DNA of 64,000 nt from Phorcus lineatus (Eukaryota; Mollusca; Gastropoda; Trochida; Trochidae), in NCBI GenBank assembly GCA_921293015.1, contig OV121085.1, positions 17,013,731 to 17,077,730 of the forward strand. Direction: 5' to 3'. Of the stretch, positions 24,578-51,500 are shown one piece after another; the stretch's first letter is position 1, and every line of letters begins with the position of its first letter. The notes under the pieces are model-generated. The model was not told the origin of the DNA. It saw only the letters and a program-made list of their open reading frames with translations, and searched no databases. A program made the position numbers and the translations under genes.

Positions 24578-27500
24578 GTAAGTTGAAGTACTGGTAAAGA
24601 ATACTTTAACTTTGAGAAATTCTACTTATCTTTTTTTCTGATACATACCGCATATTACAGTGTATAAGTCGACCCTGTGTATAAGTCGACCCCCTTTCTC
24701 AGGCCCCCAAATTGCTGTCAAAATCATTTACCTTGTATATAAGTCGACCCCCTAATAGCGTGTGTTGGAGGCAGGTCGACATGCATGAAACACGCAGCAC
24801 GTTGAGAGATTTAGTTACGGTAAATTAATGTAACGGTAATTTTCAAAGTGAGTTGTAATACGTCAGTGTTTTGTAATACAGTAAGCATTTGTTTTATAAG
24901 AGATTGTTGTAAATTTATCATAATAAAAAATACATACGTGTGTGCTGGTGTTTGTTCTTTTTAAAAAAAGAATTTTATGTCGTTTACTTCTCGGTACATG
25001 CAGTGTTGCACCTAGAGTGCGTATTTGCGTAATTAGTAAATAACGCATCTAAAATGAAATGTGGCGCAAAAAATAATAACTACTGGGCCACACCATACGC
25101 AATAAACATTAAGTACGCATTTATATGCATATCGTGCGTAGCACTCGGTTTCTAACTCAATTTAAATGTTATGGTTTTCATAAAGAAATTTGGAAATTCC
25201 CGTAAGTATTTTACGCGGTGAAAAACAAACCAAATGTCTTCATCAAATTCAAAGAAAGTTAGAAGAGTAATTGATTTTTTCACGGGAGCGAGGCAATATA
25301 CGTCTACTGATGAGGTAGGGGTACAAGATGAAATTCGTGCCGATAACATTTCCGATGTGACTACACTTCAGTATAACATGTGACAAATCGCGGGGTGTTA
25401 TTTTCGCGCTAACATAAAAAAGGACTGATTTGCGGGGTTTAATTTTCGCGAATATCGACAAAGCAATTGGTGAGCAAAACTGCATGTACCATGCAGAAAA
25501 ATTACAGTGATACTAGTAGTAATTACCTATCGGTGCCCATCACATGGTTTGCCCATGTGATGGGGAAAATCAGGTTAAGCAGCCCCAGCTTCAAGCTGAA
25601 AAAAGTCATTGACAGGTTTTTTGGGCCTGCTGACTTGGGCAACAGGACTGCTGCCCAATTCAAAATGGAAAATGCAGCTATCCTGCAACCAATCGAAGGT
25701 AAATTTTGTTAAGTTGACATTAGATGTTGCTGCTTTTTTTAATTTTGTATATTCAATCTTCCCACTCTCAGTTCAAAGTTCAAATGATAGCTGGTAGCTG
25801 ATATTTGATTATAAAAACACTTGCAATATCAACTTTCAAATAATTATTAAATGTTTAATTACAGTATTTGCTGGTGAACACCTTGGAATGGCACCAGTGA
25901 CATTCCCGGATCAGCTTTTGAAAAAGATCTGCAGTCTTCGGAAGGCTTATAGACACATCAACAAGCCTCCAGGTATGTATTCATTGTTATTAGTAACTTG
26001 GTGTGTTCTGAAATTGTCGACAGTTGGGGTCGACCCAAAAAATCCTTTGATGTGGCGTGTTGTTTTTGTGATGTTGTTTCAACGGATTAAAGTGTGGGTG
26101 TCACTGAAAGTTGAACTCAGGTGCGAAAGATATGTTGAGATATGTTCACCTATTAGTTAATGGAGCTGACTATTCGAGATGTGTTCACCAATTAGTCAGT
26201 GGAGTTCACTTACTTTACTATCCGAGATATGTGTTCACCAATTTAGCGAATTCACTCAATTTACCTAGTTAATCTAAACATATGATGACTTCACTCAATT
26301 TACTTAGTGTATCCAATCATTGTCACTATATGGGTCATTTTCAAAAAATCGGCGAATTTCTGTCCGAACATTTTTAGATACTATATTTCCTTATATTTCA
26401 TGAATTAGCTGTTGCTTTTCATGAATATATGTTGTGAAATAAGTTTATTTATCATTCCCCAAAAAATATTTAAAAAGATATTCTTCATTTTTATTTTATT
26501 TGTAGATTTGTTGTACATATGCGCCCAAAACAGCCTGTCCGAAAATTTAAAACCTATGTTTACACATATAAATTTTTAATATTTCCAAAATAAAGATAAA
26601 AAATTTATTTACAAATAACTTCAATCTGCAGTTAACAAACATAATTTAAGTGTTTTAAGTGTATTCATATTGTCAAATCCTGAAAAATTTGTGTTTTGTA
26701 TGTGTCCGGGATTTTGGTGTCTATGCTGTTACCATCATATGAATCATTATGAAATAATGATTTCTCCTCCACGAATGAAAGTGAGGCTCAGTGTCAATGA
26801 GGTCACTTCCTGTGCAGTCAAGATGGAGGACATGTGGATGCTCTCAAATTGAAATCAAACTTGATCCAACGAATCAAAGGTCCAAGGGGTGAGTAGTATA
26901 TTTTAACAATGTCCATGCTGTTACTGTGTTTTTGATGAATATATCTATCTATTTATGTTTTACTCATATGTCATATAAGTGTTATATGACACATTTTAAT
27001 GTCCATGAATCTCCACTTAAGGGAAATCACGCAGTTTGCAATGAACATAAAAATAACTAAGTTTTTTCTATGCTGTTACGTTTTTTTTGGTAACAGCATG
27101 GTATCCTGCCAAAATGCAGAACTGCAAAACGCAGAATCCCAATTAGCAGAAATGAAAAGTTCATTGTCAGGCTGGTCACACCTATTCAATTAAGTAATGG
27201 ACTGGTCCACTCTGACAGTGAGTAGAGCGACACAGTCAAATTAGCAGATCACTGTTCAACAGTATGAACCTCCCGGTATATGTTTATATGAAAATACTGA
27301 GTAGTAACACACTGTAACAATATATTCAGCACTCTATCAAAACATTGTTAAACAGTATAATCCTCCCAGGTACATGTGTTTATATGAAAATACTCTATCA
27401 AAACATTGTTTAGAGTATGAACCTCCCGGTATATGTTTATATGAAAATACTGAGTAGTAACACACTGTAACAATATATTCAGCACTCTATCAAAACATTG

Positions 27501-30500
27501 TTAAACAGTATAATCCTCCCAGGTACATGTGTTTATATGAAAATACTCTACCAAAACATTGTTTAGAGTAAACAATTAAACTTTAATCTCATACTTCCAT
27601 ATATATAGGTGTTAGAAACATGGCATAGACATTCCAATTCCACAATGGCTGGGTTACGGAAAGTAGAATATGTGATGTCTCAGAAAGGTGCTCCACAAGT
27701 GTTACTTGACGGATACTTGTATGCTAAGAACAAGGATAAGGGGGACACTGTTTACTGGCGGTGTGTTAATAGGTCATGCAGTGGCAAGTGTACCACCGTC
27801 ACAGACTTCGTGAAGATAACAACACAACACGGCCATCCACCTAGTGACGACCGGGCCCTGAAGTTTGTCAGCACGCTGAGGAAGAGAGCTAGAGAAGAGA
27901 CGACGCCAATGCAGCAGATCTATAACAACGAGGTGAACCATCAGGAGGAAGATCTTCTAGCCCACCTGCCGTCTTTCCCCAGTGTGAGCAGCGCCATGTA
28001 CCGTCACAGACGCCACAACATCCCACCACTGCCTGCATCAAGAGCTGAGGTGGACCTTCAAGACCAGTGGACCACAACTCAAGATGGCAGAAGATTCTTG
28101 CTGTTTGCGGATGGAGAAGAAAACAAGATCCTGGCCTTCTGTTCCGAAGAGTCCCTGGAAGCCTTGCAGTCTGCTGACTACATCTACATGGACGGCACCT
28201 TCTCCTCCTGTCCGGCTCTCTGGAACCAGGTGTACATCATACATGCCATGTCAGGATCGACCATGTACCCACTGGTCTTCGCCTTACTCCCAGACCGCAC
28301 GAGAGCTACCTACACCAGACTGTTCAACTTACTGAAGACTCACGTGCAGCAGACCCTCAACAGACCGCTCGCACCTTCAGTGATCCAGACTGACTTTGAG
28401 CAAGCCAGCATTGTTGCTGCAGAGACTGTGTTCCCTCAGGCCACGTTGAAGGGATGCCTCTTCCACTTCTGTCAGGCAATATGGCGCAAGACGCAAGACC
28501 TAGGACTTGCGGTTGCCTACAAGGAAGATGCTGAGGTTAGGAAGTGGGTTCGCGGGTGGGGTCTCCCGCTGCTTCCCCTGCTCCAGGTCCAGGATGCGTG
28601 GCTCGATGCTATGAACCACTGCCCAGACGTACTACAAGCTGATGCGTTCAACGACTACATCGTCGCGACGTGGGTGGATGACGATGCCAGGTTCCCACCC
28701 CGACTCTGGAACCACCATGGAACACAAGGACCCCGCACCAACAACAACCTTGAAGGGTTTCACTCCCGGATCGGCAAGACACTGCAGCACAGACACCCCA
28801 ACGTCTACAGGTTCATTGAACTGATCAAGAACATTGAAAACGGAGAGAAGGCGAAGGTCATCCAGATCAACTTTGGAGCTGCTCCACCACCCAAGAAAGC
28901 AATCTACAAAGAGAAGGAGCAGCGCCTGTCTCGTCTGAAAGATCAGCTTCGCCGTGGTGAGAAGTCACCAATGCAGTTCCTGGATGCAGTCGGACCTCTC
29001 ATGATGATGAAGATGTGAATGAAAGCACAGATTGAACAATGAACAATGATAAGCAATGTTGTAAATTGTAAAATAATCAATATCCAAGATGATGAAAGAA
29101 TCCAACAATGGAAACATATGATTAAAAAACATGCACAATACATGTTTACACAACAAATTGTATTTTTGTCTTCATTTCATTTCCTATCGGGCCGTTCCAT
29201 TATATTATGAGGGTTCAGGTGTGTGCAACCAACCATAAATGTTGTTGTTTTAGCAGTTCTGCGTTTTGCAGTTCTGCGTTTTGGCAGGTAACCAACAGCA
29301 TAGATAGAATTAGTAACAGCATAGAATGATATTTTACCATAAGTTTATTGTTTCTTTCATATTTATATAATCTGTTAGTTATCATATTAACTTAATATTT
29401 GTAGATTAACCATTAGAGCTGCAAATTGTAATGAAAATAGAGAAAATAAATAGCTGTTTTCCTCATAATGTGATTTGGTAACAGCAGAGAACATTCGGTA
29501 ACAGCACAGAACTAGCAATTTGAAAGAGCTTTCTAGTTATTGTTAATTGCATTAATCCTTAAAACATTTTTTATCATAAACATGTTTAATTCAGTCTTGT
29601 TCACTGTAATGAAATTGCAACAGCAGCTTACTGCATTTGCAACATACACTATGTTTGTGCGTACCATGGTAACAGCAAAGACAATTTGGTAACAGCAGAG
29701 AATATTTTGGTAACAGCACAGAAAATGACAATTTGAAAAAAGGGTTTCTTGCCTACTGTACTCATCCACAAAATCTTTTGTGTAACCAAAGTATGGTAAT
29801 AATCTGTTCATCATCAATTCTCATCAAGAATATTAACATAAGAAAGGAAGTTCATCAAAACATCTGTCGAGTAACAGCATAGAATTCTTCAGTAACAGCA
29901 TAGAACTATCATAAGATATTTCAATTATTTCTGTTTGTATGTATTCATACCCTGTCATATGATATGACAAGATGTGAAATATCATTATAGTTAATTTGGC
30001 TCAAATTTCTTTTTTTGTAGATATTGCTAAAGATGGCGTTATCAGCTGCCGAAAAGCAACGCTGCTACAGGGCCAGGAGAGATGCAGATCCTGAAAAAAG
30101 ACAGGCTTATGTGAAATCCCAAAAAGAAAGATACCAGAAACAGCTAGCAACAGGGAAAAGAAAACTTGCAAAGGATATGACACCAAGAGAACTAAGAATG
30201 CAAAGAAAAGAGTGGCGGACATACAAGCAAGATGCGAGGAAGCTAAAGAAAGCTGCTGAAGTTCTTCTCACTCCACCTCTTTCACCTGCAACACCTGGTC
30301 CAGCTGTTCCCCCTGTTCCGCAACCTGATTCTCGTCAGAGGAGACAAGCGAAAAGACTGAAGAGAAGGGAGAATTCAAGGCTGTATAGAAAACTGAACCT
30401 TTTGGAGAAACATGTTGCAGTGGAGAGACGGCGAGCAGATATGCTTCGAAAGAGACTTGAAAGAGCTACTCCAAGCAATAAAGATACCCCAAGGTCAAAA

Positions 30501-33500
30501 ACAAAAAAACTTTTGGGAAGATGGAATAAAAATAGCAAAAAAAACGTCCGGAAAACACTTGCCTTTCATTACACATTGATGAATGAACTTAAGTCGAACT
30601 ATGCTTCTAAAAGAAACAAAAAAACAATAGCAGAAATCGTTAGGGGAGACATCCTGCGAAAGTATAGATTCAGACATCACGCCGAAAAAGAAATAGGATG
30701 CCGAATAAGAAATACAAGAAAATCCAAAGCAACATCTTTGTCACGAAGACTCTCAAAGGATGTTAGGGAATTTTTTGTGAGAGATGACGTTTCAAGAATG
30801 TCAACAGGTATGAAAAATACCATTACTAGGAGCAAAGTTAAGCGACAGAAAAGGCTCCTCAATGACACCCTTTCCAATTTGTACTTAAAGTACAAATCGG
30901 AAAAAAATGTCCGAATCAGTTACACAACCTTCACGAGACTCCGACCTTTTTGGGTTGTTCAACCAAATGAAATTGACAGGAATACATGTTTGTGCAAACA
31001 ATGTGAAAATGTGAGATATGTGGCCGTCAGACAGCAGGATCTGGGTATCATCTCAAAGTGTGGCTTGCAGGAAATAGTCAAGTGTGTGGCATGCGACATT
31101 CATAACCAAAAATGCATGTATGGGGCCTGTTCAGTGTGTCGTGAAAAGAAAATCATTGAAAATGTGAAGCATGTGAATGATACAGTATCATGGGTGCAAT
31201 GGAAAAATGTTAAAGAGACAAGGGTCATCAGAGGAAGTCCAAAGGAGATCGCCCTAACAACAAAAAGTACAGAAAGTGGTACCATTGGTGATCTTGTTGA
31301 TTCATTCCATGAGCAAATTTGGCGTTACAGAAAACATCATTTTAATATCAACAATCAGCATACCCACTACAGAAATCTTCGTGAAAAGCTCACTGAAAAG
31401 GAATGTCTAGTTCACATAGACTTTTCCGAAAATTATGAGGGTAAACTTGCAAGTGAAATCCAAAGCATGCACTTTGGAGCTTCTAAAAACCAAGTGAGCC
31501 TTCACACAGGGGTCTATTATGTGAGAAACAAAAACGAGATCAAATGTGTTCCCTTTGCCACAGCTTCTGACTCAATGCAGCATGGACCAGCAGCAATATG
31601 GCAACACCTGAAGCCGATTCTCTCAGAAATTAGCAAGACATATCCATCTGTGGATTGCGTGCATTTCTTTAGTGATGGACCATGCAGCCAATATAGACAA
31701 AAAGGCAACTTTTATTTGCTGTCCGAGAATATTTTCTCCATGGGATTTACAAAAAGCTTATGGAATTTCCATGAAGCAGGACATGGAAAGGGAATTCCTG
31801 ATGGCGTTGGGGGAACATTGAAGAGGATGGCAGATCGCCGTGTCAGATATGGAACTGATATCATGACAGCAAATCAGTTTGTTGATACACTGAGACAAGA
31901 AACAAAAATCAAGCTTTTTGTCGTAGAGATATCTGAAGGTCAATCTGAGAAACTGAAAAAGAAATCACTGAAAGCTGTTCCAGGAACAATGGCTCTGCAT
32001 CAGATTGTAATCACTGAACCAGGACACCTTCTTTACAGAGATGTCAGCTGCACATGCACAGAAAAGAACACCTGCAAGGACCATGCCTTCAAAGAGTTCA
32101 GTTTTGAAAATAAAGATACAATGCAACCAAAACTGAGGAAAGAAGATGCTGTGAAGCTTGAACAGCCTGTTGATTCTAGCGAGAATTTCAACAGTTTAAT
32201 AGACAGACTACAGACATGTAAGAATTTTAGTGAACTCAAAGAACTTTGCCAAAACCTAAACCTTGAAAGCATAACGGGACGTCAAAGAAGTATTTTGGGT
32301 GAGAAGTTGGACGTTTATCATCAAGCTCTTGACATGTACCCAGGAGATGTTCCGGGGACTGAAATCCTGTTCCCAGTTTGTGTCATGGCTGATGGAAATT
32401 GTCTACCGTCAACTGGAAGCATCTTTGCCTGTGGTGATCAGGAAAGAACCCATGAAATGAGAGCACACATTATTGTTGAGCTGGTAAATCATCAAGACAT
32501 GTACTTGAATCATGAGTACCTTGGGAGAGGACTGCAAGAGCCAGCAAAATACAACTTGCCAAAGTCATTTGTCCCAGGAATTGCTCTTACTGCAGACACT
32601 GTGAAAGAAGTATTTGAACAGGAAGTGCTTCAAATAAGAAAGCCGAAGACAATCATCGAGACATTTGTATCTCAACATCTGCAGTCTTGCTCTCAAGCTG
32701 TACAGATCTCTAATTAGCGCGCTCCCGCCTAATTACCGCAACATACCAACCAAGCCCAACCAGCCAACTAGCGTTTCAGGACCCCTGCCCAGGCCCCTCC
32801 TAGTAGACCTGGACATATGCCTGCAGTACCTGGTAAAAACCTACTCCGTCGTCAATAACTTTGAGGACGGAGAGAAGGTCTTCACCATCGTGTTCGACAC
32901 GAAGCGGAGAAAGGGACAGAAGCCAAAACGGAGGGCTAAACCATCCCCGGAGGCTTCTGCACCCGCTCCCCCACCCCCAGGTCTCCACCAGTCCAGGAAG
33001 CGAAGACAGGTGCAGAGAAACCACAGACCCCTACACCAACAACGACGCCCACAACGCAGTCGACCCCCCAACAATGGACTCCCCCTTCCACGGCATCACG
33101 ACCGAAGAGGAAGTCCAAGACCAAGGGAAAAAGCTCCACCGCCTCCAACAACGACAGCCGCAAGGAAGTCCAGGAGACTCAGGAGACCGCAATGGAACAC
33201 CAACCGGCGCACCCCACTACGCCACCCACACAACCCGTTTAAGTGGGAGCAGAAGTTGGAGGCTCAACCTCCGGCGGAAGCTCCTACGCTAGCGACAGGA
33301 AACGGCAATACTTGCAGGTTGCCGAAATGAACCGCCTTCAAACCACCAAGGCCGTTCAATCCACCCAAGGGAACTCGCATATCCTGTATGTAAGGAAGGA
33401 TGACCAGATGCGAGCATTGAATCACTTCGCCCTCACATACAGGACCCCAGCAGGATCTAACAAGGGACATCGTCTACAAAGGAGCCACGTTCCTGTTAGA

Positions 33501-36500
33501 CGATGACTTCCTCTACTGGATGACAATTGCCTACATCAACAAGACGGGAGACATCAACACTGGAAACAGCAAGGCGGACCAGGCCATGGACCGCATCTTC
33601 GCTAAATTCATGTAGCACCTGCCCTGTCAGTCTTCCCCCATGCCACGTGGAAGGGCTGCTTCTTTCACTACACACAGTGTGTGTGGAGGAAAGTTCAGAA
33701 CCTTCCTGGAACCACTTCGAGACAGACGGCCCACGCACCAACAACCACCTGGAGGGATGGCCTGGACGGATGAAGAAGGTCATCAGCAAGGCACATCCGA
33801 ATGTCTTTGAGATGGCCAAATTCCTGCTCGACGAGCAGAAACTCAACGAAATACGCTTGATTCAGTACAGAGCTGGTCAGAAACTCCCTGCCAAGAGAGT
33901 GTGCTCTACAGAGACCCTTGCTAAGCTCGCCACGCATGGCTAGAATTGTTGCATTTGATTTACTTGTTTCTTAAAATCGTATTATTACTTTCAGTCAACC
34001 AGCCCTCTCACAACTGCCAACTGACTGAACTCAATACCAACTGCCACATGCCTCACACCAGCTTTTTTTTTATTAAAACGTTTAAATGAGTGTGTTTCTT
34101 TTTTCATTGTTTAATGCATGCTTCTCGCATCAATGCTGGTACTATTTTATGACTGGGATGTACTATGGCAGAAGCTTCTGAAGCAAACTTCAACAGCTGC
34201 TTTAGAAGCTTCTGCCAATTTGCAGTACGTGGAATATCAGTAACAGCATAGCCAGAATCATAAATTCATGACGGGACGCATGTGCATACTTGTTAGAGGC
34301 ATTGGTGGGTGTCAACATTAATGACACTAGGGAGTATGCACATAAACCTAGCGAGGATCCCGTCCTGAAGGATGTATCAGCATACTCGTTAGAAGCACCG
34401 GCTGCTGTAAACTTTAACGACTTAAGGATGCAACCACATAGTCTCTAGAGGCACTGGTTGCTGTAAGCTTTTACGACATAATTACACCTTCAAGATACAT
34501 CCACATAGTCTCTAGAGGCACTGGTTGTGGTAAACTTTTACGACCTAATTACACCTTTAGGATGCATCCACATAGTCTCTAGAGGCACTGGTTGCGGTAA
34601 ACTTTTACAGCTACAATCACTTTTAGATTTTGAAGATACATCCACATTGTCGCTACAGGCCTGTACATTTTACGACTTTCTTACCCCTTGGTGAAGGTGA
34701 AAATGTACTTGCCAATGCACTTGTGGCAATGGTAAAATTTTGCTTGCTGAGACACTGTGAATGTGTTTTGAAAGGGGAAATTTTTTAATAGGGGATCACA
34801 AGCAATATCAAATATGACTTGTTCAGACAAATGAAACCATTCTGGGTTAAACATCCAAAAGAGTCAGAACGATGTACATGCTTATGTAAACAGCACGAAA
34901 ATTTCAGATTTGTTGTTGAAAAACTTCATAAACTGAAGGTCATAGACACTCATGACTTGGATAAAGTACTTGAAAAGACAGTATGTCGGATGAGCAACAG
35001 AACCTGCATGTATGACCTGTGCATCAAATGCAAAGACATTTCCTTGGATCTACTGAAAGCTTACAGGAACCAATGTTGACCCAAAGTGAAGACAATGAAA
35101 ATGACGCAACTTGGAAAACCCAGACATTTGACAAATACAAAGAATCATTTGAATGTTACATGACAGGAAATCAAGAAAATAAAGACATTGCTTCAATGAC
35201 TGGAACCCCAGACAAAACTGAAAACAATGAGTTGGATAACGACAGGCTTGAATATTTTCAGGATATGCTGAATCAACTCAATTCATGTTCATCATTTTCA
35301 GACTTGAAAGATAAATGCTTTATACTCAATGAAAACATGAAGTATGAAGTGCAAGGAACTGCAAGATACATAATGGATGGCTCTTATTCTGTTGATCTAA
35401 ACACTCTTGAGATCTGTCCGAACGATGTTCCTCATTCCGCTACTCTCTTTCCAATAAATGTTCAAGCAGATTGAGATTGCTTGCCCCATGTGGGCAGTGT
35501 CTTTGCATTTGGGCACAAGAGCTACAGTGACGAGATGCGTGTCCGCATTGTTTTAGAACTTGTTCAGCACCAAGAATTGTATCTTTCACAAGAGCGTTTG
35601 TCAAGTGGCCTATGTTGTGACCATGATTTCAAGATATCAAGCAATCTAGTCGGTAACTTTGTTCAGTATTCAGAGAGCTATGTACCAAATAGATCTTTCA
35701 ACAATGATTCTATGAAAACCATCTATGAAGAGGAAGTGATGTCTATCACAAAACCAAGAAAGTACATGGGAATATGGCAGGTGTTTGCATTGTCTAGTGT
35801 CTTGGGGATGAACATATTCTCTGCATATCCATAACTTGGCAATACCAGTGTTAGAAATGACTTAAATCGATTGATACATCCACGAGTTTTAAAGGACCAA
35901 GAAACAATCCATCTGATGTGGACAAGTACGCGAACAGCAGATATGAATTCTGCACACTGGGTGCCAAATCATTTTGTTCCACTTATGGAAGTTGATCACA
36001 CTGCCGCTTCTGTGGAATCTTCAGCTACTGAATGCCCCAAACCTGCTGACCTGAAAAACACATTGCCAGAACCTGATGGACTGCTTGGCAAATTTGTAGT
36101 AGTGTCCTATGATGGCCAGGCATACCCTGGAAAAGTTCTTGATTTAGAAGGACGAGACATGTATGTTGAGTGAATGCATCACGTCACAAGAGAGAACAAT
36201 CGGTTCTTTTGGCCACGCATGCGTGATCGTTGCTGGTATAGCTACGAAGATATCTTGGCAGAAATACCAGAGCCAAGGGCCATTGAGGCATCAAGACACA
36301 GGAGAGTCGATTCCAGAATATGGAAAGCTTTAACGGGCCAATAGATAGCTGAACATTAACAAAGCTTCAGTAAAGTGACAATAAAACAGTTTGAGACATG
36401 ATTTTTAAACTTAAACAGCAACCGGTACCTGCAAATTTAGTCAATTGTTATTTTTTATAACTTATCTAAAGATGATAAAATGAAAACTTTTGGTCTGTAG

Positions 36501-39500
36501 TGTCTGAAATGTTTTATAACTGGTGTGGATCTTACTTGGATAAAAAGAATTATTGTGGAAATAGTTTTTACATGTAAGGCATTTGGTTGAATATAAAAAT
36601 GTCAAATTTTTGTCATTTTTAGATAAATAAGCAAATTGACTGAGTTGTTATGAAGTTTAATCTGTACCTGTCATGATATTTCTGCACGTTTTAAAACAAA
36701 CATGTTAAAGTCATACTGTGTCACTTGACTCACTTACGTTACTTGTGAATGGTTCTAACAACTTTTATGCTTATACGAGTCTTTTTCAAAATATGCAAAC
36801 ATTCTTGTCCTGAGTGAATAAAATTCCATTTGGTACAAATACATATATTTTTTTCAGTTTATCTGATAATATGAGCCATAATCGTAGCATTATTAATTTT
36901 ATTTAAGATCAAATGTATTTGAATTTTGTGTAACAGTACTTTAAATAGCCAAAATGTAGCTTTTTTGGACGTCTCTCAGTCAGTGTGCTGTTAGACTTTA
37001 ATCCATATATTTATAACTATAACATATTTTTTAATTTTGTAAATTTTGTAAGTTGCATTTAACATTATACTTACTGATGAAACAGAATTTAACAGGCCTA
37101 TCCTCAATATTCTGTAAAAAAAATGATATGTTTATGTTGTCTCTCAGTATTTGTTCTTTCCCGTAACAACAGCTTCAAATTTGAAATAATGTATGGTCCC
37201 TGCTGCTGGGAAACCCACATTTCCTGTCATGCTCTTTGGCACTTCCTCTTTCTCTTGAAACCACATGCTCAAGATGTTGCAGTGATTGAGACCTTCAGGA
37301 AAATTCCCCAAAGGTATGAATTTTGACAGTATTTTTCTTTAGCATCTTTACTGTAACGCTATTATGACACTAACAGATACATTATTCCAAAATCTTGTTT
37401 TCATGATCACATTAGAATGTTGGAACATTTGAAACTTAGATATTGCAAACTTTCTTAGGGAGCGTTTATTTTTCAATTATGCTGATTGAGTTCATGTAAT
37501 TCTTTCCCGTAACATTCTTTACTGTAACACTAAAAATTGTTACAGGAAAGAGTGATTTTGTTACAGTAAAGAAAAATTCATATATTAAATGAGATTTTGA
37601 TGAAACTATACTTTAAACTAAATTTATTTTTTGTGTGAATATTTTCTAAGACATAAATCTAGTGCAAAACATTTTTTAAAAAACTTATTTGTGTGAAGCC
37701 TGATTGTCATGCAACACTTTCTCCAAAAGGTGTTACAGTAAAGAACAATTATTGTTACGGGAAAGAAAACACATGCTCTTAATATTAGTGTATCGGTTAT
37801 TTCACCAATATTTTAACATTTTGTAATGACAATTATGGCATGAATATAATATCCAATTGCAAGTGTTTTTTAATGAAAACATTTATTGGATTACATTTGC
37901 ACAAACTCACAATATATGTTACCGTTACAGTAAAGAAATGCATTTTGTTACAGTAATGATTTATGATGTTATGGAAAAGAAAATTTACATATAAAGATGT
38001 ACATAATGACCAAGTTCTTTAATTTTTTAATGTGTTTGTCATGCAGACTTGTGGAGATTTTTAGACAGATAGTTCATTTAATTAAAAGTATAATATTATA
38101 TTAAAATAAATTAAGAGGTACCATTTATCCCTTGAACCGTTACAGTAAAGAATGATAAATGTTACAGGAAAGAAATACTTGTTCTGTTTTCTACATTTGT
38201 TTAATACCAAATCCAATGTCTGGCCTTTTACAGTTATTTTGAATAAAACAATCATATATCTTACAGAATATGCATCAAACTTAAAGCAATTGACAATGAA
38301 CATACTAGTAAAATCAAATTAAAGGTTTACGTTACAGTAAAGATTCATTAATGGTGAAAAACTCAACTCTAAAGCAAAACCATTATCATTTCTGTATTGG
38401 AATGACATGAAGATTTATTTTGTTTTACAGCATCACTATGGCTATGAGCAACGCAGAAAGGCAGAGAAAATTTAGAGAAAATCGGGACAAAAATCAACAG
38501 AGGCGACAGATATATTTGGCGTCAGAAAGACAGCGGTATAAGAAAGATAAAGAAAGTGGGAAGAAATCCACTACTAAAGATCTATCTGAAAGAGAACGAA
38601 GAATATTGAGACGGAAATGGAGAAAACAAAAAGCAGTTCAAAAGAAACGTGAGAAGGACGCTAAACGTAAACTTGAAAACCTGCTTACACCGCCAATGTC
38701 TCCCGAAACTCCACAAAATCCTAGGGAGGCATCATCACGACAGAAGAAGCAGCACATTAAGAAAATGAGGAGAGAGCAGGCGAAGTGTTATCGTGACAAG
38801 GCATCTCTACAACGTGATTTGGAAAATGCTAACAGAAAGGTCTTGATGTACAAGAAAAGATGTGACAGATTGCAGAACCTGAAAAAAGATTGCCTGGGTG
38901 ACACCCCACGTTCTAAAACAAGAAAATTGCTACGAAATGCTTCAAAAAAGATAGTGAGAAAAACTTTACTTTTTCATAATGCCCTACTTGATCAAATGAA
39001 GGTATGGTATAATAACAAGAAACGGAATCAGAAAAATGATCTTGCTACAATGCTCTCAGGACCAATACTTCGAAAATACAAGTTCAAGTCAACAGCATGG
39101 CATGCATGTGGCGTACAAGTAAGACGAAATCAGAGCAAGCACATTCACAACTGCCTATCTATCAGAGAGAAGGTGACAATCAGAAACTTCTATGAGCGAG
39201 ATGATGTCTCACGCCTAATGACTGGCATGAAAAAGACTGTCACCTACAAAAAACAGACAAAGCAGAGGAGAGTCTTAACAGACACTTTGAGGCACACGTA
39301 TTTGAAATACATCTCTGAGGGAAATACAAATGTCAGTTTCACCACATTTTATCGACTCCGTCCTTTCTGGGTGATATTTCCAAAACCCAGTGACAGAAGT
39401 ACATGCCTCTGCAAGTTATGCGAAAACACCCAGTTCATGTTGTCTGCCTTAAAGACTGCCAAAGCTATCAATAGTGATTCAACTGAGAACTTTGTTAAGC

Positions 39501-42500
39501 ATGTATCCCGTGATATCACATCACAGACATGTATGCATGGCAAATGTACTACATGCAAATCCATCCGAGTACCATATGACAAATCAAGAAAGGACACTGA
39601 AACCCAATGGTTCCAATGGATTACGAAAACTGAACGCAGGAAGATTAAACATAGACAAGAAGAAGTTGAGAAAGATGTCTCATACACAGTGAAGCAAATC
39701 TACAATGGCAGTGTCATTGATCTTTTAGAATGGCTGGATAAGAGCATAGACAGATATAAAAAACACTATTTCAACATAAGGCATCAATATGAATACTTCC
39801 GACAACGCAAAGAAAATCTGATGAACAATGAGTGTGTAATCCATGTCGACTTCTCTGAAAATTTTGTGTGCAAGTATTCTGAGGAAATCCAAAGCATGCA
39901 CTTTGGTGCTTCAAAGAAGCAACTATCTTTGCACACAGGTGTGTATTATGTTGGCCAAGAAAAGCACCATACATTCTGCACAGTAACAGAAGACCTTAAC
40001 CATGGACCTGGTGCAATATGGGCCCACCTCGAACCTCTGCTTGTGCAAATATCTAGTACTTATCCACAAGTCGATACCTTGGAGTTTTTCAGTGATGGCC
40101 CTACTGTCCAATACCGTCAAAAGGGGAATTTCTTTCTCTTGACTACAAAACCCAGAGAGTTTGGTTTTGAACATGTTTCTTGGTCATTTTTTGAGGCTGG
40201 CCATGGCAAAGGTGTCCCAGACGCTGTTGGTGGAGCTGTAAAAAGAACAGCTGATGGATCTGTCAAGTATGGGAAGGACATTGCATCTGGAGAGGATTTC
40301 ATTAAGGCTGTCAGTGGCAGTGCTGTAGATTGCATTCTGGTACCTGTTGAAGACATTGTCCAAGGAGTATGTTATGCATCTCAACAAAGGCTTCAAGCAG
40401 TCAAGGGAACAATGAACTTGCACCAAGTGTTTTCCATCTCAGAGGGTGTAGTGAAGTATAGAGATACAAGCTGTTCTTGTACGTACCCGAATGAGTGTTC
40501 TGAGCATACTCTAAAAAAGGCAAACTTATTGCTAAAGCGAAAAGAATCAACTCCTCAAAGAAAGGACATCAACGATACAGAATCAAATGTGAATGCAAAG
40601 CCATCACAGGAAAAAAAACTGAAAAGAAGAAGAAGAACTCAACCTCGGAGAAACCAGTTTGATATTATCCTAGAAGATATGGACAGGTGTACTACATATG
40701 AAATGCTTCAGAAAAAATGTGAAGAGATTGAAAAGTGTATCGAGCCCTTGACCAAAGTGTCCACGTTTGTAAGCTTTACAACTCAGCCTTTGGAACCAGA
40801 TGTTCAAGCTATGGATATGATACCATCAGATATTCCTGATAAAAGAACTCTGTATCCATGTCAGGTTGATGCAAATGGAAATTGTTTGCCATCATGTGGA
40901 AGTGTCCATGCCTTTGGTCGCACTACAGAAAGTTCAGAAATAAGGGTTAGAATTGTTTGTGAACTTGTTTTGAATGAGGAAAGATATCTGAATAGCAACT
41001 ATCTATCAAGAGGAACAGAAGATCACCAAGGAAAACCCAAGAACTGGCCATATCTTTACACACAGTACTCCGATGTTTATGTTCCTGGCATCCATCTCTC
41101 AGATGATATTGTGCAGTATTTCTACAGATTAGAAATGCTCAAAATCAGAAAGGACAAAAGTTTTATGGGTATGTGGCAGTTGCATGCTTTGGCTGAAGTC
41201 CTTAATATGCCAGTCTATTCGGTATACCCAAAACTGGGAGCCACTTGTGTTCGACAAGATTATCATCGTGTTGTGTATCCAAGTACTGACGAAAGATGCG
41301 CTGACACACCAGCTTACATCTTGTGGACGAGTACCAGGGATGACATGAAGAGAGAACATTGGGTCCCTAACCATTTTGTGCCCCTTCTCCCAATAGACAT
41401 TGAAGATGATGGCATGGAGGTCGAGTCAGTGCTTGTTAAAACTTCTGATGAAGAGATTGAAAAGAAGGGTGATGGGCAACCAAGGAGTGTGAATGTTGAA
41501 AGTTGTGCTGAGATTGAAAAGAAGGGTAATGGGCAACCAAGGAGTGTGGATGTTGAAAGTTGTGATAAAGAGATTGAAAAGAAAGGTGATAGGCAACCAA
41601 GGAGTGTGGATGTTGAAGGTTGTGATGAAGAGGTTGAAAAAAAGGGTGATGGGCAACCAAGGAGTGTGGATGTTGAAGGTTGTGATGAAAGGGTTGATAA
41701 GAATGGTGATGGGCAACCAAGGAGTGTGGATGTTGAAGGTTGTGATGAAGAGGTTGAAAAGAAGGGTGATGGGCAACCAAGGAGTGTGGATGTTGAAGGT
41801 TGTGATGAAGAGATTGAAAAGAAGGGTGATGGGCAACCAAGGAGTGTGCATGTTGAAGGTTGTGATGAAGAGATTGAAAAGAAGGGTGATGGGCAAACAA
41901 AGAGTGTGCATGTTGAAGGTTGTGATGAAGAGGTTGAAAAGAAGGATGATGGGCAACCAAGGAGTGTGCATGTTGAAGGTTGTGATGAAGAGATTGAAAA
42001 GAAGGGTGATGGGCAAACAAAGAGTGTGCATGTTGAAGGTTGTGATGATGAGGTTGAAAAGAAGGGTGATGGGCAACCAAGGAGTGTACATGTTGAAGGT
42101 TGTGATGAGGTTAAAGGAAAAGGTGATGGGCAAACAGGGGGTGTGGATGTTGAAGTTTGTGAGGTTAGTGATGCGAAAGTTAAAATAGAAGGATACACAT
42201 TGAAGGTTTCTAGCCCTAAACGATGCATAGGCAAATATGTGGTAATTGACTACAATGGAGTGCCATACCCTGGCCGTGTAAATGATGTTTCAGAAACTCA
42301 GTTGCTTGTTGAATGCATGCACCGTGTTTCTAAAATTGAGAAGAATGATTTTTTCTGGCCTAAGAAAATAAAAGACATTGAGTGGTATGATCATGACAAT
42401 GTCATTGCCATGATACCTGAACCACAGCCAATCTTGTTGTCATCTCATTCCCAAGTCCATCCAGTGGCATGGAATGAAATCCTAGGATTGGGCTACTCCA

Positions 42501-45500
42501 AGAATGGCTAAATGCTTCCATTTCAATTGTTTGAAAGTTTAACATCGTTACTGTTTTTTTTAGAGTTCAGTCACATTTTCTTATGAAACAGCTCAGAAAT
42601 AGATTTCCTGTGGTTGATTGATCAAGTTTGCCAACCAATTTAGTTTTTCTTTCACTCGTGTCATTGAAGACTTATTTGAGGTTGCTGTATTTGAGAATAT
42701 TCAAGAGTTAGAATGATTGTAGATTTGGCTAAATTCTTTACTGTTACAATAAATTCTTTACTGTAACGCATCATAGGTACAAGATATTTGTTACATTAAA
42801 TAGCATTGGCCAATTTCTCAATCATTGATATTTTAGATTCATTGTTGAACGCTGATGTTACCTGTTTGCAGAAATTGTGTTTGTTTTATCTACAATTTTT
42901 CTTTAATGTGAGTCAAGATCGACATTTTCTTTACTGTAACAATATTTTACTTTCCCGTAACACACATTTCTTTCCCATAACGACAATATTTCAATAATAT
43001 TTTAAGGTTTTGAAGAAGCCTATTGCTGTGAAAATTTGCTTAAAAGACATCTGTATTGTACCATTATTTTTAATGAAATGAAATCTTTTAAGAAGTGAGG
43101 TCTTTCTTTTGAACTTTAAATAGAAACATCAGTCTACATACTGTTTAAAAATATGTTTGCATACAACAGGGGTTTCAAATAAAAAACATTGAAATTTTCA
43201 AACATTTATGCTAATCTGGTGAACATCTAAGTTGCTCTTTGTGTCTGTAGTACAATATTGCAAAAAATGTCATTTGTTTAATTATAAAATGCCTTAGTTG
43301 TGTCGTTACGGGAAAGAAAACAATTGTTGATCCTACAAGAAAACATGATTTTCCCAAAAATATGAATGACAATTAAGGGTCAATTCTGTTATGTTTAGAA
43401 CGAATGTTACTTTACAATGCTATAAAAAGAATAAATTTCTATATTTTCACACATTGCATTTTGTCATTTCATTGAAACCAAATGTTGGCAAATTTTGAAA
43501 AAGACTCATACATGTAGTGTAGTGCAGTGTATGAACTTTATTTCAAAGTATAAATGACTTGATACTGTCTTACAATTATTAGACATTGTTCACAGCACAG
43601 TCTCAAGTAAACATCAATGCAAGTTATAAATTTTCAGCTATGGTCAAACACAAAGTTTGATTTTATGCTTGCACTTTTATGGTCTTAAAATGTAAATCAA
43701 ACCCGTTGCCACAGATGCCAAGAACAGTTACCAAGTAAAAATGATCTCAAAGAAATGTTCAGTTATGATAATTTGTGTTAATTTTTTTAATGTTTTTAAC
43801 CAGTTTCTTTAATTGCCACATGTTTTACAGTTTTAGAGATTTAAGTGAAAGTTAACCTATCAATTTTTGGACTTTCAAGAACGAATGTCCAAACCGTTAC
43901 CAAGTCAAAACCGAAACCGTCCATGTCCTGTACCCTTACCCAATTAAATTTGCATGTTAATTAAAAAGTATTAAAAGAAATTAAATCATAATTATTCATA
44001 AGATTGGTTGTTATATATAATAATATTTAGGAATATAGTCACTTCCTTAAAGAACAAAATACATTATTGCTTCCTATTTGATAAGATTAAAGCCAATTTG
44101 ATTCAATCAAGCATTTTGGAAATGTTCTCTGAAAACAAATTGTAAAAATGGCTTCATTGGAAAACATATTGCAAATAATATTATTGTCAATTCAAATAAT
44201 CAATTATGTATGTGGTGAAACATTAACTTAATATTACCATTTGGTTACAGTATTGACAACTTTATCAAAGTTAATTAATTAAGTGTTAATTATTTACAAA
44301 GTTGGTTTTGTTAAGATTGCATATTTTGTTGTTATGAAGTTAAAAGAGTTTGTATTTGTTTGGAATAAACAAAGATTGCAAAATTCAACTTTGATTTTTT
44401 GTTTTTTCGCATATCCAGATTTGGACTCTTCAGCAGTTTGACTCATATCTCTCTTTCGGAGAGATCATACAGAGCGTGTTTTTTTAGTGGTGTGCGTGTT
44501 GTTCTTCCCCGATTATCTCCCCTAAGTTACCTCCCCTGAAATTCAAACTCAGCTGACATTAGACGTTAAACGAGATCAAGCAGATGATTGCGTCCCTAAC
44601 TTCCAACATGGCATCCATGCAACGAGAATCAGCTAAGCGCTTCTCTGCACTCAAGACCAACCAGGGAGACCCTGCGGTAGCAGGCCGTGTGGGCGACCAG
44701 CCAGGACCTCTGTCCAACATCACGTCCAGCAGCCAGCCTCCCTGATCCTTGACTCAGTGGAGGGGGCGGTCGGCTTAGCTCCTCTGCCTTGCTAAGGAAG
44801 CACAGGTCAAGGGCCCGATGTTCTCCACGGCAGGCACGAGCCCAGATTGTTGATTGCCTCTGACCCGCTTCTGAATGCCATGGCAACTGAGGCGCACGGG
44901 CTTCAGTGGGTATTCAGAGAGCGCAGGAGGATCTCGTTAAGCGGTCTGTTAGCACGGATTTACCTGCAGCTGCTGGCGAGGTGGGTGGCCGCACTTCTGC
45001 ACGTGCGGTCCGTGATCAACAGCAGGAGTTCATCAGCATTGACAATCTGCCTTTCATTTCCGTGCTTCAAGACTCTAACGGAATCACGGCCTTCTGTCAC
45101 TCTGTCACAGACACAGACTCCATGGATTTTACAGGTCTACCCATGAAGGACAGTTGATAATTCCATCCGATGATCACTCCTCCTCTCTTAACCCAGAGGG
45201 GAATTTAGGGGATAAACTCCAGTACTTTTACAGTTTTTTGACAGTATCAAGTGTTATTCCAAAGAATTTCTGAATCTAACAGTATTTAAGATTGAAGGCC
45301 AAATGTTTCTGATGCGAAACGATGTTTGGATAATGAAACTGATAGCAAAGTGATAAATTGCTTAAACCACAACGAGAGAATTTTGAAAACTGAAACTTAA
45401 TTACCTGCAAGTAATTTATTATTTCAATTTTACAAGGAAAAGTAGGGGAGAGCGGGGTCAATTGTAACACGGGGCAATTGTAACAAGGGCCATTACTCGA

Positions 45501-48500
45501 AATGTATGTGCTCAGAGTCTAAATGAGTAGAGTTACTTCCCTTTTTGTTCTTCTTGTTAACATCCGGGCGTTTTCGAGCTACTCACACATCGAAAGTTAC
45601 AGTGGAGAAAAAACCGTTTTTGACTAAGGTAAGTAATTTTTTCAGAAAAATTGATAAAAGTTTTTTAATGCAGTCAATCTTGATATATATGAGATAAACT
45701 TTTCACATAATACCTTGAATCATTGCGCCATACTTTGAAATAGAAATGGTTGAGCTGTCAAACTTGGTTAACTCGTGGTATGGTGTGAAAGATGGCCGAT
45801 ACCCAAAGGGGCAATTGTAACACAGTGTTACAATTGCCCCACATAATTTTTATTGATGTTACAATTGCCCCTTATTGTTTCGACATATTAAAACTGACAT
45901 AAGTATAATGTCTTTTGTTACAGGATGCTTGTGGATGGCTTAGATTGGGCCGTAAGTGGAGGACCTGTTTTTAAGCAGTTGTACAAACGAGAAATAGGGT
46001 TACAGAGAAAAGATTCAAGACAGATTGAAACCAATTACCTTACTCTATCGTTGTCAAAACTATTCCTCTCAGAAACTGATGATGACCTGCAGTGTGAAAT
46101 AATCTTCCTTCTTATCAATCTTGTGACAGATAAGACACATTTTGGGGTTGTAAGTGCTCAAACGTTGAAGGACATCTGTTCAACATATGACTACACATAT
46201 GAACCTTTATCTGTGCTTCGTTGTGCTCGACTTTATTTGCAACGATTGGCCCCTCTTGCTAACAGCAATGACATTTATGTTTGTCAAGAATACCATTTGA
46301 TAGAGGCTTTAGTTGATGAACTTAGATCCTGAACAGCATGGTGCGAGACAGGAAAAGGACCACAGATAGAGGGAAAGGCCTACATAATCTGGCATTAGCA
46401 AAACAGGCTGTTGATCAGGGTCGATCTGTTAGGAGTGCAGCCCAAGACTTTGATCTGTGTCATGTTACCTTGGCACGATATTGCAAAAAAGCTGATGTGG
46501 ATAGCAGTGACAAGTCACATAGATTTGGATATAATCCTCATAATAGAGTATTTTCAAGTGAAAATGAAAGAATACTTGTGAAATATTTGAAAAGTGCTGC
46601 TGAAATCTTTTATGGTTTAACTCCAAAAGATGTGCGGCAACTAGCCTACGAGTGTGCAGTGAAACATAAGTTATGGTATCCTGATGCATGGAATGAAAGC
46701 AAGATGGCTGGCAGAGACTGGTTTACTGGATTTATGAAGCGTAACAGCACACTGACGTTGAGGAAGCCCCAAGCAACAAGTCTGGCTCGGGCTACTTCAT
46801 TCAACAAAACTACTGTCAGTGAATTCTTTGACAATCTTTCTAACGTGCTGGGTCGATTTCAATTCCCGCCACATGACATCTACAACATGGATGAAACAGG
46901 CATCACCACGGTACAACGCCCAAGCCATATCGTTGCGGAGAAGGGGACAAAGCAGGTTGGGGCTCTTACCTCTCAGGAAAGGGGGACTCTGGTGACGTGT
47001 GCAGTTGCCATTAATGCAACGGGAAACAGCATACCTCCAATGCTGATTTTCCCAAGGAAGAACTTTAAAGATCATTTCATAAGAGATGGACCTCCTGGCT
47101 GTACGGGAACTGCAAATGGATCCGGCTGGATGCAAGAAGATGACTTTCTTGTATTCTTGATGCATTTCCACAAACACACGAAACCAAGCCTCGAAAAGCC
47201 GGTTCTTCTCATATTGGATAACCACGAATCCCACAGATCGATAAAGTCACTGGATTTCTGTAAGGACAAGGGCATTGTACTTTTGTCACTACCGCCGCAC
47301 ACATCCCATAAGCTACAACCTCTGGACAGAACAGTCTTCGGACCCTTGAAAAGAGCAACAGGCAGATGTTGTGATTCATGGATGATGAATCATCCTGGTC
47401 AAACGATGACCATTTACAACATTCCAGAAATTCTCCGAGAAGCTCTCCCCTTAGCCATTACACAAAACAATGTGATCTCAGGGTTTCGATGTACTGGAAT
47501 TGTTCCTCTCAATCGGGATGTATTTCAAGAAATAGAGTATGCTCCATCTCAGGTTACTGACCGTGTTGACCCGTCAGCAGTTCCTGCGGTATCGACCCAG
47601 CAAGAAACTGGTCCTGGAACTTCGACCCTACAAGAAACTGGTCCTGGAACTTCTGGAACTTCGATCCGACAAGAAACTGGCCCTGGAACTTCGACCCGAC
47701 AAGAAACTGGTCCTGATACTGATGGCTCTCAGTTCTCTCCAGTAGCAGTCAAACCGTTCCCTAAAGCAGGACCTCGAAAACAACAAAAAGGCGGCCGAAA
47801 AAGAAAAAAATCTGAAATACTTACCGATACACCTGTCAAAGCTAAATTGACGGAAGAAAAGCTGCAGGCTAAAGAGAAAAAGAAACCGAAACCGAAACGT
47901 TTGACGTTCAAAAAGAAGAAAACAGTCCAGTATGAAGACGATTCAGATTCGGAAATGAACATTTGCTTAGTGTGTTGTGACAGTTTCACAAATAGTCTCC
48001 CAGGCGAAGAATGGTTGCAGTGTTCATCGTGTAAGTTTTGGGCTCATGAAGACTGCACGCCAAAACAAGGTTTTTACATTTGCCAAAACTGTCAATCGGA
48101 TGATGAGGATTGTTGAAGATGCCTCTAGTTCAGTGTTATGTGTTGACAGCGTTATGCAAACTTTTGGAGTTTACTTAATATATTTTCTGACAACGCCACA
48201 TGAAGAATTTCTTAGTCGTTGAAGCTCTCTTGAGAGTTCTTTATAAGCTTTAAATGTTGGTATAAAAAATTCATTTGCATTATTTCCTCTTTCTGTTGAT
48301 ACAGTTTTTTGGGAAAAAACTGCTTTACTGCATTTGTACTCATCAGAGCCGAATGGAGTTCTTGGTTGTTTACCATGCTGTTGGACTATTTATCGTGAAG
48401 TTGGACATTTTGTTTCTAATTAAACCCCAATTATGAAACTTTATGCAAAAAATAATTTCAAGGGTGAACAGTGTTGGTATCGTTCCTTTTAATGTATTTG

Positions 48501-51500
48501 TTGCCTGTTAAAGGCACAAAATACATAAAAAATGTCAATGATGACGAAGATTGTATGACCATTTACTTTTTTTGCTATTTGTTCATGTTTTGTTTGATTG
48601 TATTGAAAAATAAAAGAGCTTTCAAATATTATGAGTCTTGTGTTACAATTGCCCCACTCACCTGTTACAATTGCCCCTTGGAAGGAGTCGATTGTAACAC
48701 TTGGAGTGACTGCATGTAACCTGAAATAACTGTGTAACGATGTGATATTGAACCTTTAGAGACACTGTAATTTACAGCCGAGATGTCAATTTACCAGATG
48801 GTACCGAATGATTTGGTGATATGTGTACTACTTTCATAACACAACAAGTTTTGTAAAAACTGTTACAATTGACCCCGCTCTCCCCTACATAACAATCTTT
48901 AACAATCAAAATGGCGACCGTCAACGAGCCTTCTGCCAGCGTGTGATGACATGATTTGTTGGGGTATTCGCTCGAAGTCGAAAATATAGTTTCAGGTATT
49001 CGCTCGAAGACGAAAAGCGGTGCTCTTTGATGATTGGTGTTGTTTTAGTAAAGTTTTGATAAAGGATTAAGGACGGATTATCGCCTTCCGCGTGGTGAGC
49101 AAGATGTGAACTGTTCTCACGTTGACATGATTTTTCACACTGTCAAAATTATGAGTTGATTTCAATCAATTAAAAAAAAACAATTATGGTACCTATAAAT
49201 TAGTTTCTTCTCCAAATTGCAATCACTATCGGTATTGCACCATGGCTAACGCACAAGTAGAGTACAAGTATGTTCCCACTTCCAGAGGTGGTAGATATCT
49301 TTGTGTTGGAAATTTCATGTATCGAATTAGCAAGCGAGGGGCAAATGACGTCGACTATTGGAAATGTTCCACTAAGAATTGCCCAGGAAAGATAACCACA
49401 AGACAGGATATACCGCTACGTGGCGATTCGACCCACAACCACCCACCAGTTCGGAAGGACATCAAGGTAAGATAAGATAAGATAAGATAAGATAAGATAA
49501 GATAAGATAAGATAAGATAAGATAAGATAAGATAAGATAAGATAAGATAAGATAAGATAAGATTTTACTAACTGTCTCCTATATAAATTTTTAATTTTTG
49601 TTTCAGTTGCACGAGACTTTGCACTCTCTGAAGACGAAGGCGAAGACGTCCTTGGCGCCCATGCAAGGCCTGTACGAGGAGGAGATCCGTGCTCTCCGAG
49701 ATGGACCCTGGAACGATGCCAACCGTACCCTCGTGGAAGCAATACCAACATTCCACACTATGAAAGATGCCCTATATCGAGCTCGTCTGTCCACATTTCC
49801 TCCACTGCCAACTCATCGAAGAGACCTTATCGTCCCCGAGCAATACAGAACAACCGACGCCGGTGACCAGTTCCTCATCATCGACGATGGAGACGACAAC
49901 AAGATCCTGGGATTTTCTTCCGCTCGTAACTTAGAACATCTCTGTGCTGCTGATACCATATTTGGAGATGGAACCTTCTACGTAGTCCCAGCCATATTCT
50001 GTCAACTATACACGCTCCACGCCGTCGTCGCTGACAGAACGATGCCATTGGTTTACCTGCTGCTGCCCGACAAGAAACAGACCACCTACGACAGAGCTTT
50101 TAGACTTGTCAAAGAAGCTGCAGAAGCAAGGGGTCTTCGTCTACAACCAGATTGTGTCCAGGTAAGTTTCTTATATTTAGCTTCCTATAGTTTTATAGTT
50201 TTAGTTTAAAGCATAAACACTGTTCTTTGTTTGGTCAATTGTAGTATTAGTCTTACTTATGTAAATGTATTTCTGTTACAGATGGACTTTGAAGTAGCAG
50301 CAAGGAACGCCGTGAAAGTCGTCTTCCCTGGAGTGGAATGGAAAGGGTGTTTTTTCCATTTTACACAGTGTGTCTGGCGAAAGACACAACAAGTTGGACT
50401 GCAGATCGACTACAGTGAGAACCCAGACGTCAACCACTTCGTCAGGCTCTGTGCTGTATTGCCTCTAGTGCCAGTGGCTGATGTAAGTATTTTCGATAAT
50501 AAAACTAAATAATATAGTAACCTGTAATTCTTGTCTCTTTAATAAATTATCATAATCATAAGAAAAAAATCAATAATTCCATTCTATTTATGTTTAAGGT
50601 TGAGGAAGTGTGGCTGCAGACACTGGCTGAGATGCCAGATGACAACCGATGCATACAACTAGCAGACTACATCACCAGCAACTGGATAGAGGGTAGTCTG
50701 CCGATTGCTTCATGGAACCACTACCTCACCACTGGACCCAGGACCAACAACAACCTGGAGGGATGGCACGGACGCCTGAAGAAACTGGTTGGGAAGGCTC
50801 ATCCAAACATTTTTTAACTAATTCGTTTCTTGTTAACTGAGCAGAAGACAACAGAAATAAAAACGGTGCAATATGCTGCAGGACAACGCCTCCCGCCAAA
50901 GAAGAAGAAGTATGAGGACCTGCAGAGGAAGCTGAGCGACCTGAAATCAAGACTTGACTCCGGACACATCGCCGTGTTCGACTACGCTGCCAGAGCTTCC
51001 CATCTTCTCAAGCTAGCTTAATTTCCTGAAACATTGTCCATTATAAATAACATTTTGAGGTTAGTACATTAAATTAAGATAATGATTAAAAGTATTATGT
51101 CCAGTCTATGTATTTTATTATTTTGTATTACTGTGCTATATATTTGTATTTATGTACAAAAATGTCTGACCAATATGTAAGAAATAAAATAATAATTGTG
51201 ATTATGTAAAGTTTTTTTTATGTGGTCACTAGGTCGGGGGAACCACCGTTCGATTTGTGTGTCGAAGATCGGAGTTGTTTTGACAAGCGCCTATTGTTTA
51301 ATGTAGATTGGAGTCGATTGGGAGGGAGCTACCGTTCGCTCGAAGACGAAAACGAAATTCGCTCCATGTTTATACACGCCGAAAATTTTCGACTTCGAGC
51401 GAATGAACCGATTTGTTCCCACTTTGCCACCAGGCCACCAAGGATTAACCGGGATTAAGATTAACAATGTTTATACGAGCACGGGGGTCGTATCAAATGC

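Follow-up and report, generated by a model that had tools for sequence, protein, structure and literature searches.

The 64,000-nt stretch of the Phorcus lineatus genome analysed here (GCA_921293015.1, OV121085.1:17,013,731-17,077,730, forward strand; hereafter the window, on which all coordinates are based) contains three related coding stretches, all on the plus strand, which we call copies 1, 2 and 3. Copies 1 and 3 probably represent two subfamilies of a single autonomous DNA transposon of the cut-and-paste type, a reading that takes in the chromatin-based mechanism with phased arrays proposed below. Membership in DNA transposons at large is likely, and the two copies apparently belong to an undescribed branch. 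An initial annotation of this DNA had already proposed such a branch; the predicted folds, the subterminal arrays of sites, the terminal inverted repeat and the lack of a Pfam transposase match fit it, whereas the DDE triad it named is not supported. What is new relative to that account is the nucleosome-sized, conserved layout of the sites, together with the corrected triad.

The proteins of copies 1 and 3 are indeed homologous, with 39.6% identity over 922 columns. Copy 3 is intact, and its gene lies within an element (element 3; Table 1) delimited by 30-nt terminal inverted repeats, which are imperfect (90% complementary) and whose local alignment score of 45 compares with a maximum of 31 in 30 resamples. 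The span of the 14-bp motifs, previously taken as the extent of the element, falls short of these approximate limits on both sides. The copy 3 protein comprises, in order, a helical/cysteine-rich N-terminal part, a predicted RNase H-like core (landmark residues D471, D553 and D595), an OTU domain (C816 and H979), acidic 20-aa repeats and a C-terminal domain; the repeats are encoded by a 60-bp minisatellite of 12.1 copies (41446-42162). The SH3/Tudor-like end assigned earlier can be aligned in many relatives, but its fold was identified by no sequence match in the PDB and by no Pfam match above cut-off, the sub-threshold Pfam matches being HAS-barrel in copy 3 (E 0.17) and Tudor_4 in the relative P0119 (E 0.043).

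Table 1. Features of the three copies and of the transposon inserted in copy 1 (window coordinates).
Feature	Position	Strand	Remarks
Probable left end, copy 1	26327..26365	+	similar to element 3 left end
Outer-left inverted sites, copy 1	26719..27079	-	starts 26719, 26911, 27066
Predicted 5' untranslated region (UTR) intron, copy 1	26889..30020	+	donor GGG/GTGAGT, acceptor TTTGTAG/, by eye; MULE included
Inner-left forward array, copy 1	27090..29905	+	27090 and eight sites at 29313-29905; split by MULE
MULE transposon (FLYWCH and MULE domains)	27100..29293	+	inserted into a copy 1 site, splitting it
Copy 1 gene	30033..32717	+	894 aa from its ATG; broken within OTU
Outer-right forward site, copy 1	34240..34253	+	
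Copy 2 remnant	34801..36338	+	tblastn pieces, three-frame translation
Element 3	36774..43510	+	6,737 bp, delimited by terminal inverted repeats
Left terminal inverted repeat, element 3	36774..36803	+	
Outer-left inverted sites, element 3	37154..37528	-	starts 37154, 37344, 37500, 37515
Predicted 5'UTR intron, copy 3	37314..38430	+	donor CAAAG/GTATGA, acceptor TTTTACAG/, by eye; ATG 38438
Inner-left forward array, element 3	37539..38344	+	10 sites in 5 clusters (2, 2, 3, 2, 1), spacers 156-158 bp
Copy 3 gene	38438..42511	+	1357 aa, intact
Inner-right inverted sites, element 3	42734..42981	-	2 + 3 sites, 159-bp spacer
Outer-right forward site, element 3	43305..43318	+	
Right terminal inverted repeat, element 3	43481..43510	-	

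The structure predicted for copy 3 contains an RNase H-like core, as had been expected, with an integrase and Mos1 among the structural matches (the absence of a family from such lists does not exclude that family). Conservation was counted in 220 rows of relatives for the core and in 72 rows for the OTU domain; sampling was query-driven, and the counts describe the matches rather than nature. D471 is kept in 213 of the 220 core rows (the other seven are gaps), D553 in 214 (five gaps, one H), H589 in 218 (two gaps) and D595 in 217 (two gaps, one A). The letters of the D-x81/84-D-x32-E motif reported earlier are present, with x81 in copy 3 and x84 in copy 1; its glutamate, E586 in copy 3, is not family-wide: in the corresponding column 120 rows have E, 90 G, six A, one C and one V, and two have a gap. 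The 98 rows with G, A, C or V include OTU-bearing ones, and E586 was therefore rejected as the third acid. The model places D471 at strand 1 (within it or one residue beyond), D553 directly behind strand 4, E586 two positions past strand 5 and D595 as the third residue of the helix that follows strand 5. According to the account of RNase H-like enzymes in PMC3985635, the position of the third acid can be filled by D, E or H and lies canonically in the helix after strand 5, although some enzymes have it shifted to between the strand and the helix. Because E586 varies, whereas D595 is near-invariant and sits in the canonical helix of the model, we assign the third acid to D595, which makes D471-D553-D595 (D471-x81-D553-x41-D595) the most likely triad; its counterpart in copy 1 is D463-x84-D548-x41-D590. 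D606, in the same helix as D595, is nearly invariant in two narrower alignments, but the 220-row set has D there in only 133 rows. The signature of the core can be written DFxEN...SDGxxxQY...HGKxxxD; the conserved core ends at about residue 690 in copy 3, and alignment A1 contains no near-invariant acidic column past D606. Two features expected of a DDE/D transposon, an RNase H-like core and three conserved acids, are present in the model and the alignment.

No Pfam transposase model matched copy 3 or any of 47 rows of relatives scanned. Since the core is spread over animals (matches are named as molluscs, insects, echinoderms, hagfish, a catfish and a jellyfish) yet escapes these models in all 47 rows, it represents a gap in transposon annotation. 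A search of BFVD with the core returned nothing at or below E 0.001, and of 69 stretches in viral contigs that fit the pattern of related loci none was confirmed.

The OTU protease fold, likewise anticipated, is recovered in the predicted structure of copy 3, and the catalytic Cys and His that accompany this fold in an OTU cysteine protease are both in place in the model. Cys816 is kept in 71/72 OTU rows and His979 in 61/72, the remainder being gaps. Part of the OTU signature first described was found in each copy: WVPNH occurs in copy 3 and in the copy 2 remnant (at 35958), and copy 1 retains DGNC and has lost WVPNH. Across the 220 core rows the domain was detected in 66, was absent from 60 with a tail of at least 150 residues, and could not be judged in 94 that are too short to tell. 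In a FastTree tree of 207 rows, OTU domains are found in separate parts of the core tree, which parsimony translates into five changes when short rows are scored as unknown. With its complete Cys/His pair, the OTU domain would most likely strip ubiquitin off the transposase that carries it or off chromatin in the neighbourhood. One relative, P0129, is a pogo-type transposase (HTH_psq, DDE_1) with the same type of OTU, which points to the domain as an accessory module that moves between kinds of transposases. Another relative, P0188 from Apostichopus japonicus, carries a predicted fusion to a DFF40 nuclease (Pfam E 7.6e-33) that may be an artefact of the gene model.

Both genes are surrounded by arrays of 14-bp motifs far in excess of chance, as the initial annotation had reported. 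With up to two mismatches allowed, GTAACAGCATAGAA is matched 13 times in 26700-34270 (mean 0.05, maximum 1 in 60 first-order Markov resamples) and GTTACAGTAAAGAA 17 times in 36770-43515 (mean 0.2, maximum 1 in as many resamples). A weight matrix trained on 30 sites, combined with a pattern scan, yielded 13 sites in copy 1 and 20 in copy 3, with matrix scores from 12.1 to 22.6 for the 33 sites; because scores of up to 13.2 also occur in the other 46 kb of the window, the lowest four sites fall in the background range and the rest are clear of it. A few degenerate extra sites seen by eye at phase positions had no weight-matrix support and were dropped. The plan of orientations described before, outer-left inverted, inner-left forward, inner-right inverted (copy 3) and outer-right forward, was confirmed; inner-right sites are missing from copy 1 in the pattern scan. 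The two arrays use different words, with position 3 being A in 11/11 sites of copy 1 versus T in 18/19 of copy 3, and position 8 being C in 11/11 versus G or T in 18/19.

In the left arms, 12 sites of copy 1 pair with 12 of copy 3 in order, orientation and spacing once the MULE transposon inserted in copy 1 is subtracted by coordinates; the comparison leaves aside the right arms and the copy 3 sites at 37500 and 38331, which have no partner in copy 1. Successive intervals are 192, 155, 24, 21, 165, 20, 171, 20, 21, 161 and 21 bp in copy 1, and 190, 171, 24, 21, 172, 22, 170, 23, 21, 171 and 22 bp in copy 3. Agreement as good was obtained in 0/200,000 trials with random placement, in 34/200,000 with permuted copy 1 intervals and in 2/200,000 with redrawn long intervals. 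The sites are grouped in twos and threes at distances of 20-23 bp, and the inner clusters are separated by spacers of 151, 157 and 147 bp in copy 1 and of 158, 156, 157, 156 and 159 bp in copy 3 (mean 155.1, standard deviation 4.1 bp for these eight; the left-arm spacing test used 8 of the 12 measured spacers). This inner gap is near-constant after clusters of either two or three sites. A nucleosome core takes up 147 bp. No convincing similarity links the spacers: 3/66 pairs reach z above 3, none of them convincing, and one of these, in which copy 3's two outer-left spacers are compared in opposite orientations, lies just above its null maximum. In both copies a consensus splice acceptor closely precedes the start codon, and a consensus donor follows a short stretch between the first and the second site, so that most left-arm sites would lie in a predicted 5'UTR intron. 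The distance from the left end to the first site is 392 bp in copy 1 and 380 bp in copy 3, and CACTTCCT, with three plus-strand occurrences in the window, is found 85 and 86 bp past the first site in the two copies.

We propose that the transposase binds the subterminal 14-bp sites of the subfamily to which it belongs, that its helical/cysteine-rich N-terminal part is the probable binding region, and that sites 20-23 bp apart are presented on the same face of the DNA. Most of them would sit in the predicted 5'UTR intron, a short way past the promoter, the right end having fewer sites in reversed orientation. A bound oligomer could then gather each end, synapse the two and, at the same time, damp its own promoter, after which the RNase H-like core, through D471, D553 and D595, would cut at the terminal repeats; the OTU domain may deubiquitinate the transposase itself or nearby chromatin. 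Because the inner spacer has about the length of one nucleosome, the clusters would fall in linker DNA. Carried to its full extent, this becomes the picture of an undescribed animal superfamily in which the transposase reads linker clusters beside positioned nucleosomes, the OTU domain acts there, and the transposon end is a phased nucleosome array instead of naked DNA; in this complete form we regard it as speculative and rather unlikely. Were ends built on chromatin in this way, the unrelated pogo-type element downstream of copy 3, whose groups of 15-bp sites lie one or two units apart, would represent the same solution evolved twice. A nucleosome-length spacing kept over deep divergence would make the reading of transposon ends in chromatin directly testable, and likewise the role of the fused deubiquitinase.

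Several observations weigh against this interpretation. With Foldseek alone the core had no match below E 0.001, and Argonaute-type PIWI domains score 7.1 to 8.7 against it, near the scores of transposases; for these two reasons we call the fold RNase H-like in general only. Close to copy 3, 27 of the 29 rows examined do have E at the E586 position, which might still have a catalytic role in that group. At the ends of element 3 at most TA can be read as a target duplication, and none is convincing on the edges of this one element; in copies 1 and 2 no right-hand terminal repeat rises above the null, which for copy 1 counts as a missing end. The spacing analysis concerns two copies, and its null models were picked after the pattern had been seen. 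The outer-left spacers depart from the inner length, yet are alike in the two copies (178 and 141 bp in copy 1 vs 176 and 142 bp in copy 3), and the last gap of the right arm, 323 bp or about two inner units, does not fit. Finally, the spacers are AT-rich (0.69-0.77 vs 0.63 for the window) and the eight inner ones are flat with respect to 10-bp WW periodicity, so that the sequence itself lends nucleosomes no support.

These last two properties speak for the view that the spacers reflect the geometry of a large transposase oligomer looping free DNA, which is the main rival to nucleosomes and, in our estimate, a substantial possibility that stops short of being the favoured one. Such an arrangement has parallels in the outer and inner sites of Sleeping Beauty and in the Hermes octamer with its several subterminal repeats, as described in PMC7827188 and PMC10368747. 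A rigid loop, however, would prefer a fixed number of helical turns, which the site-to-site gaps of 161-173 bp do not provide, and the gap between clusters matches the 147-bp core particle plus about 8 bp. It is also conceivable, if distinctly improbable, that the spacing goes back to the tandem amplification of some unit of about 190 bp and is under no functional constraint: the inner-left clusters recur after 186, 191 and 202 bp in copy 1 and after 193, 192, 215 and 192 bp in copy 3, much as in a decayed satellite. Yet the spacers show no convincing similarity within or between copies, the intervals agree within 16 bp between copies whose proteins are 39.6% identical, where neutral decay should have brought many indels, and the near-constant quantity is the gap past the last site, whether the cluster has two sites or three.

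That a host DNA-binding factor rather than the transposase occupies the sites seems improbable. Most of the sites do lie in a predicted intron that adjoins the promoter, but each copy has its own fixed site variant although both stand in one genome, and the orientation of the sites is mirrored at the two ends of copy 3; since the two words differ by fixed letters within one genome, two cognate transposases are favoured over one host factor. Another alternative would see the copies as members of a domesticated or host gene family, encoding chromatin or transcription factors with a degenerate core and using the arrays as their regulatory sites. It could draw on the long open reading frames present in many animals, the combination of an OTU domain with a possible chromatin-reader end, the position of sites around the predicted promoter and the precedent of Vertnin, described in PMC10318531 as a host gene whose OTU-like domain is inactive. 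We give it only a slim chance, as three divergent copies, two of them broken, are nested with MULE and pogo-type elements, copy 3 has a terminal inverted repeat, the arrays stand at both ends in mirrored orientation, and the three acids are conserved in relatives. A transposon thus remains our preferred reading of copies 1 and 3.

Among known transposons, one of the nearest parallels is Ginger1, described in PMC2836005 as a DDE-type animal transposon with terminal inverted repeats and an OTU (or Ulp1) protease at the C terminus of its transposase, for which a role in transposition has been proposed. Copy 3 has in common with it the terminal inverted repeats and an OTU domain joined to a transposase core. 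The transposase of Ginger1, on the other hand, is a Gypsy-type integrase with a zinc finger and a GPY/F motif (PMC2836005), and no Pfam integrase matched copy 3 or the 47 rows at Pfam sensitivity, H2C2 and GPY/F having had no separate search. Copy 3 had no match among PDB sequences, the A1 profile had none to an integrase, and retroviral integrases carry DDE where the triad here is probably DDD. To Tc1/mariner the resemblance is one of predicted fold, the copy 3 core being RNase H-like, aligning without a large insertion and having Mos1 among its best folds; it goes no further, as neither DDE_1 nor DDE_3 matched copy 3 or the 47 rows, and copies 1 and 3 differ from Tc1/mariner/pogo elements in the spacing of the first two acids (81-84), in their cysteine-rich N-terminal part and in having 13-20 sites rather than four. 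Sleeping Beauty has one outer and one inner site in each terminal inverted repeat of about 220 bp (PMC7827188), and Hermes acts as an octamer on several subterminal repeats (PMC10368747); in comparison with both, a long array whose inner gap stays close to 155 bp is unusual. The family would share with Hermes and other hAT elements subterminal repeats read by a transposase oligomer (the oligomer being our proposal for copy 3), and would differ from them in that strand 5 runs directly into the D595 helix in the copy 3 model.

Other families compare as follows. Pfam MULE matched neither copy 3 nor the 47 rows. The last acid of Dada is placed much farther away in the account of PMC3706591, against 41 residues between D553 and D595 in copy 3. 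The C/DxxH motif that PMC9587614 reports for Kolobok, hAT and P does not occur between D553 and D595; as CSEH is present at 687, this outcome depends on D595 being the last acid. For Academ, Novosib, Sola, Zator, IS3EU, Zisupton, Transib, piggyBac, Merlin, Harbinger and EnSpm there was no Pfam transposase match, with the reservation that Pfam may not cover all of them. UniRef names the relatives P0015, P0123 and P0212 Vertnin, and VRTN has an OTU-like domain; human vertnin, by contrast, is listed in PMC10318531 without a potential catalytic site. We recognised no description of this core combined with an OTU domain and phased arrays in the open-access literature searched.

Copy 1 is broken: its frame stops inside the OTU domain and is followed by MULE-like sequence. 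Its probable left end resembles the left repeat of element 3 better than any of 500 resamples (0/500), whereas 6/500 or 43/500 resamples, depending on the scoring, match the right repeat as well. The MULE transposon inserted in its array is flanked by an 8-bp target duplication, AACAGCAT (27092-27099 and 29294-29301). Between the outer-right site of copy 1 and the copy 2 remnant lie 67-bp tandem repeats (34369-34608). Copy 2 retains the cysteine-rich region, the OTU domain and the C-terminal domain, with in-frame stops; the catalytic core is missing, and the pattern scan found no site array.

The region is a nest of transposons. Pfam MULE matches occur at 27609-29018 and 52060-53259, and a frame at 49595-50209 is MULE-like by reading only. 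The pogo/Tc1-type element (45442-48888) has a perfect 28-nt terminal inverted repeat and an open reading frame at 46326-48116 with DDE_1 and a weak PHD match (E 0.078). It carries its own sites, GGGGCAATTGTAACA, in nine places (one of them at three mismatches), and one of the intervals between them, at 337 bp, has the same length as one in copy 3.

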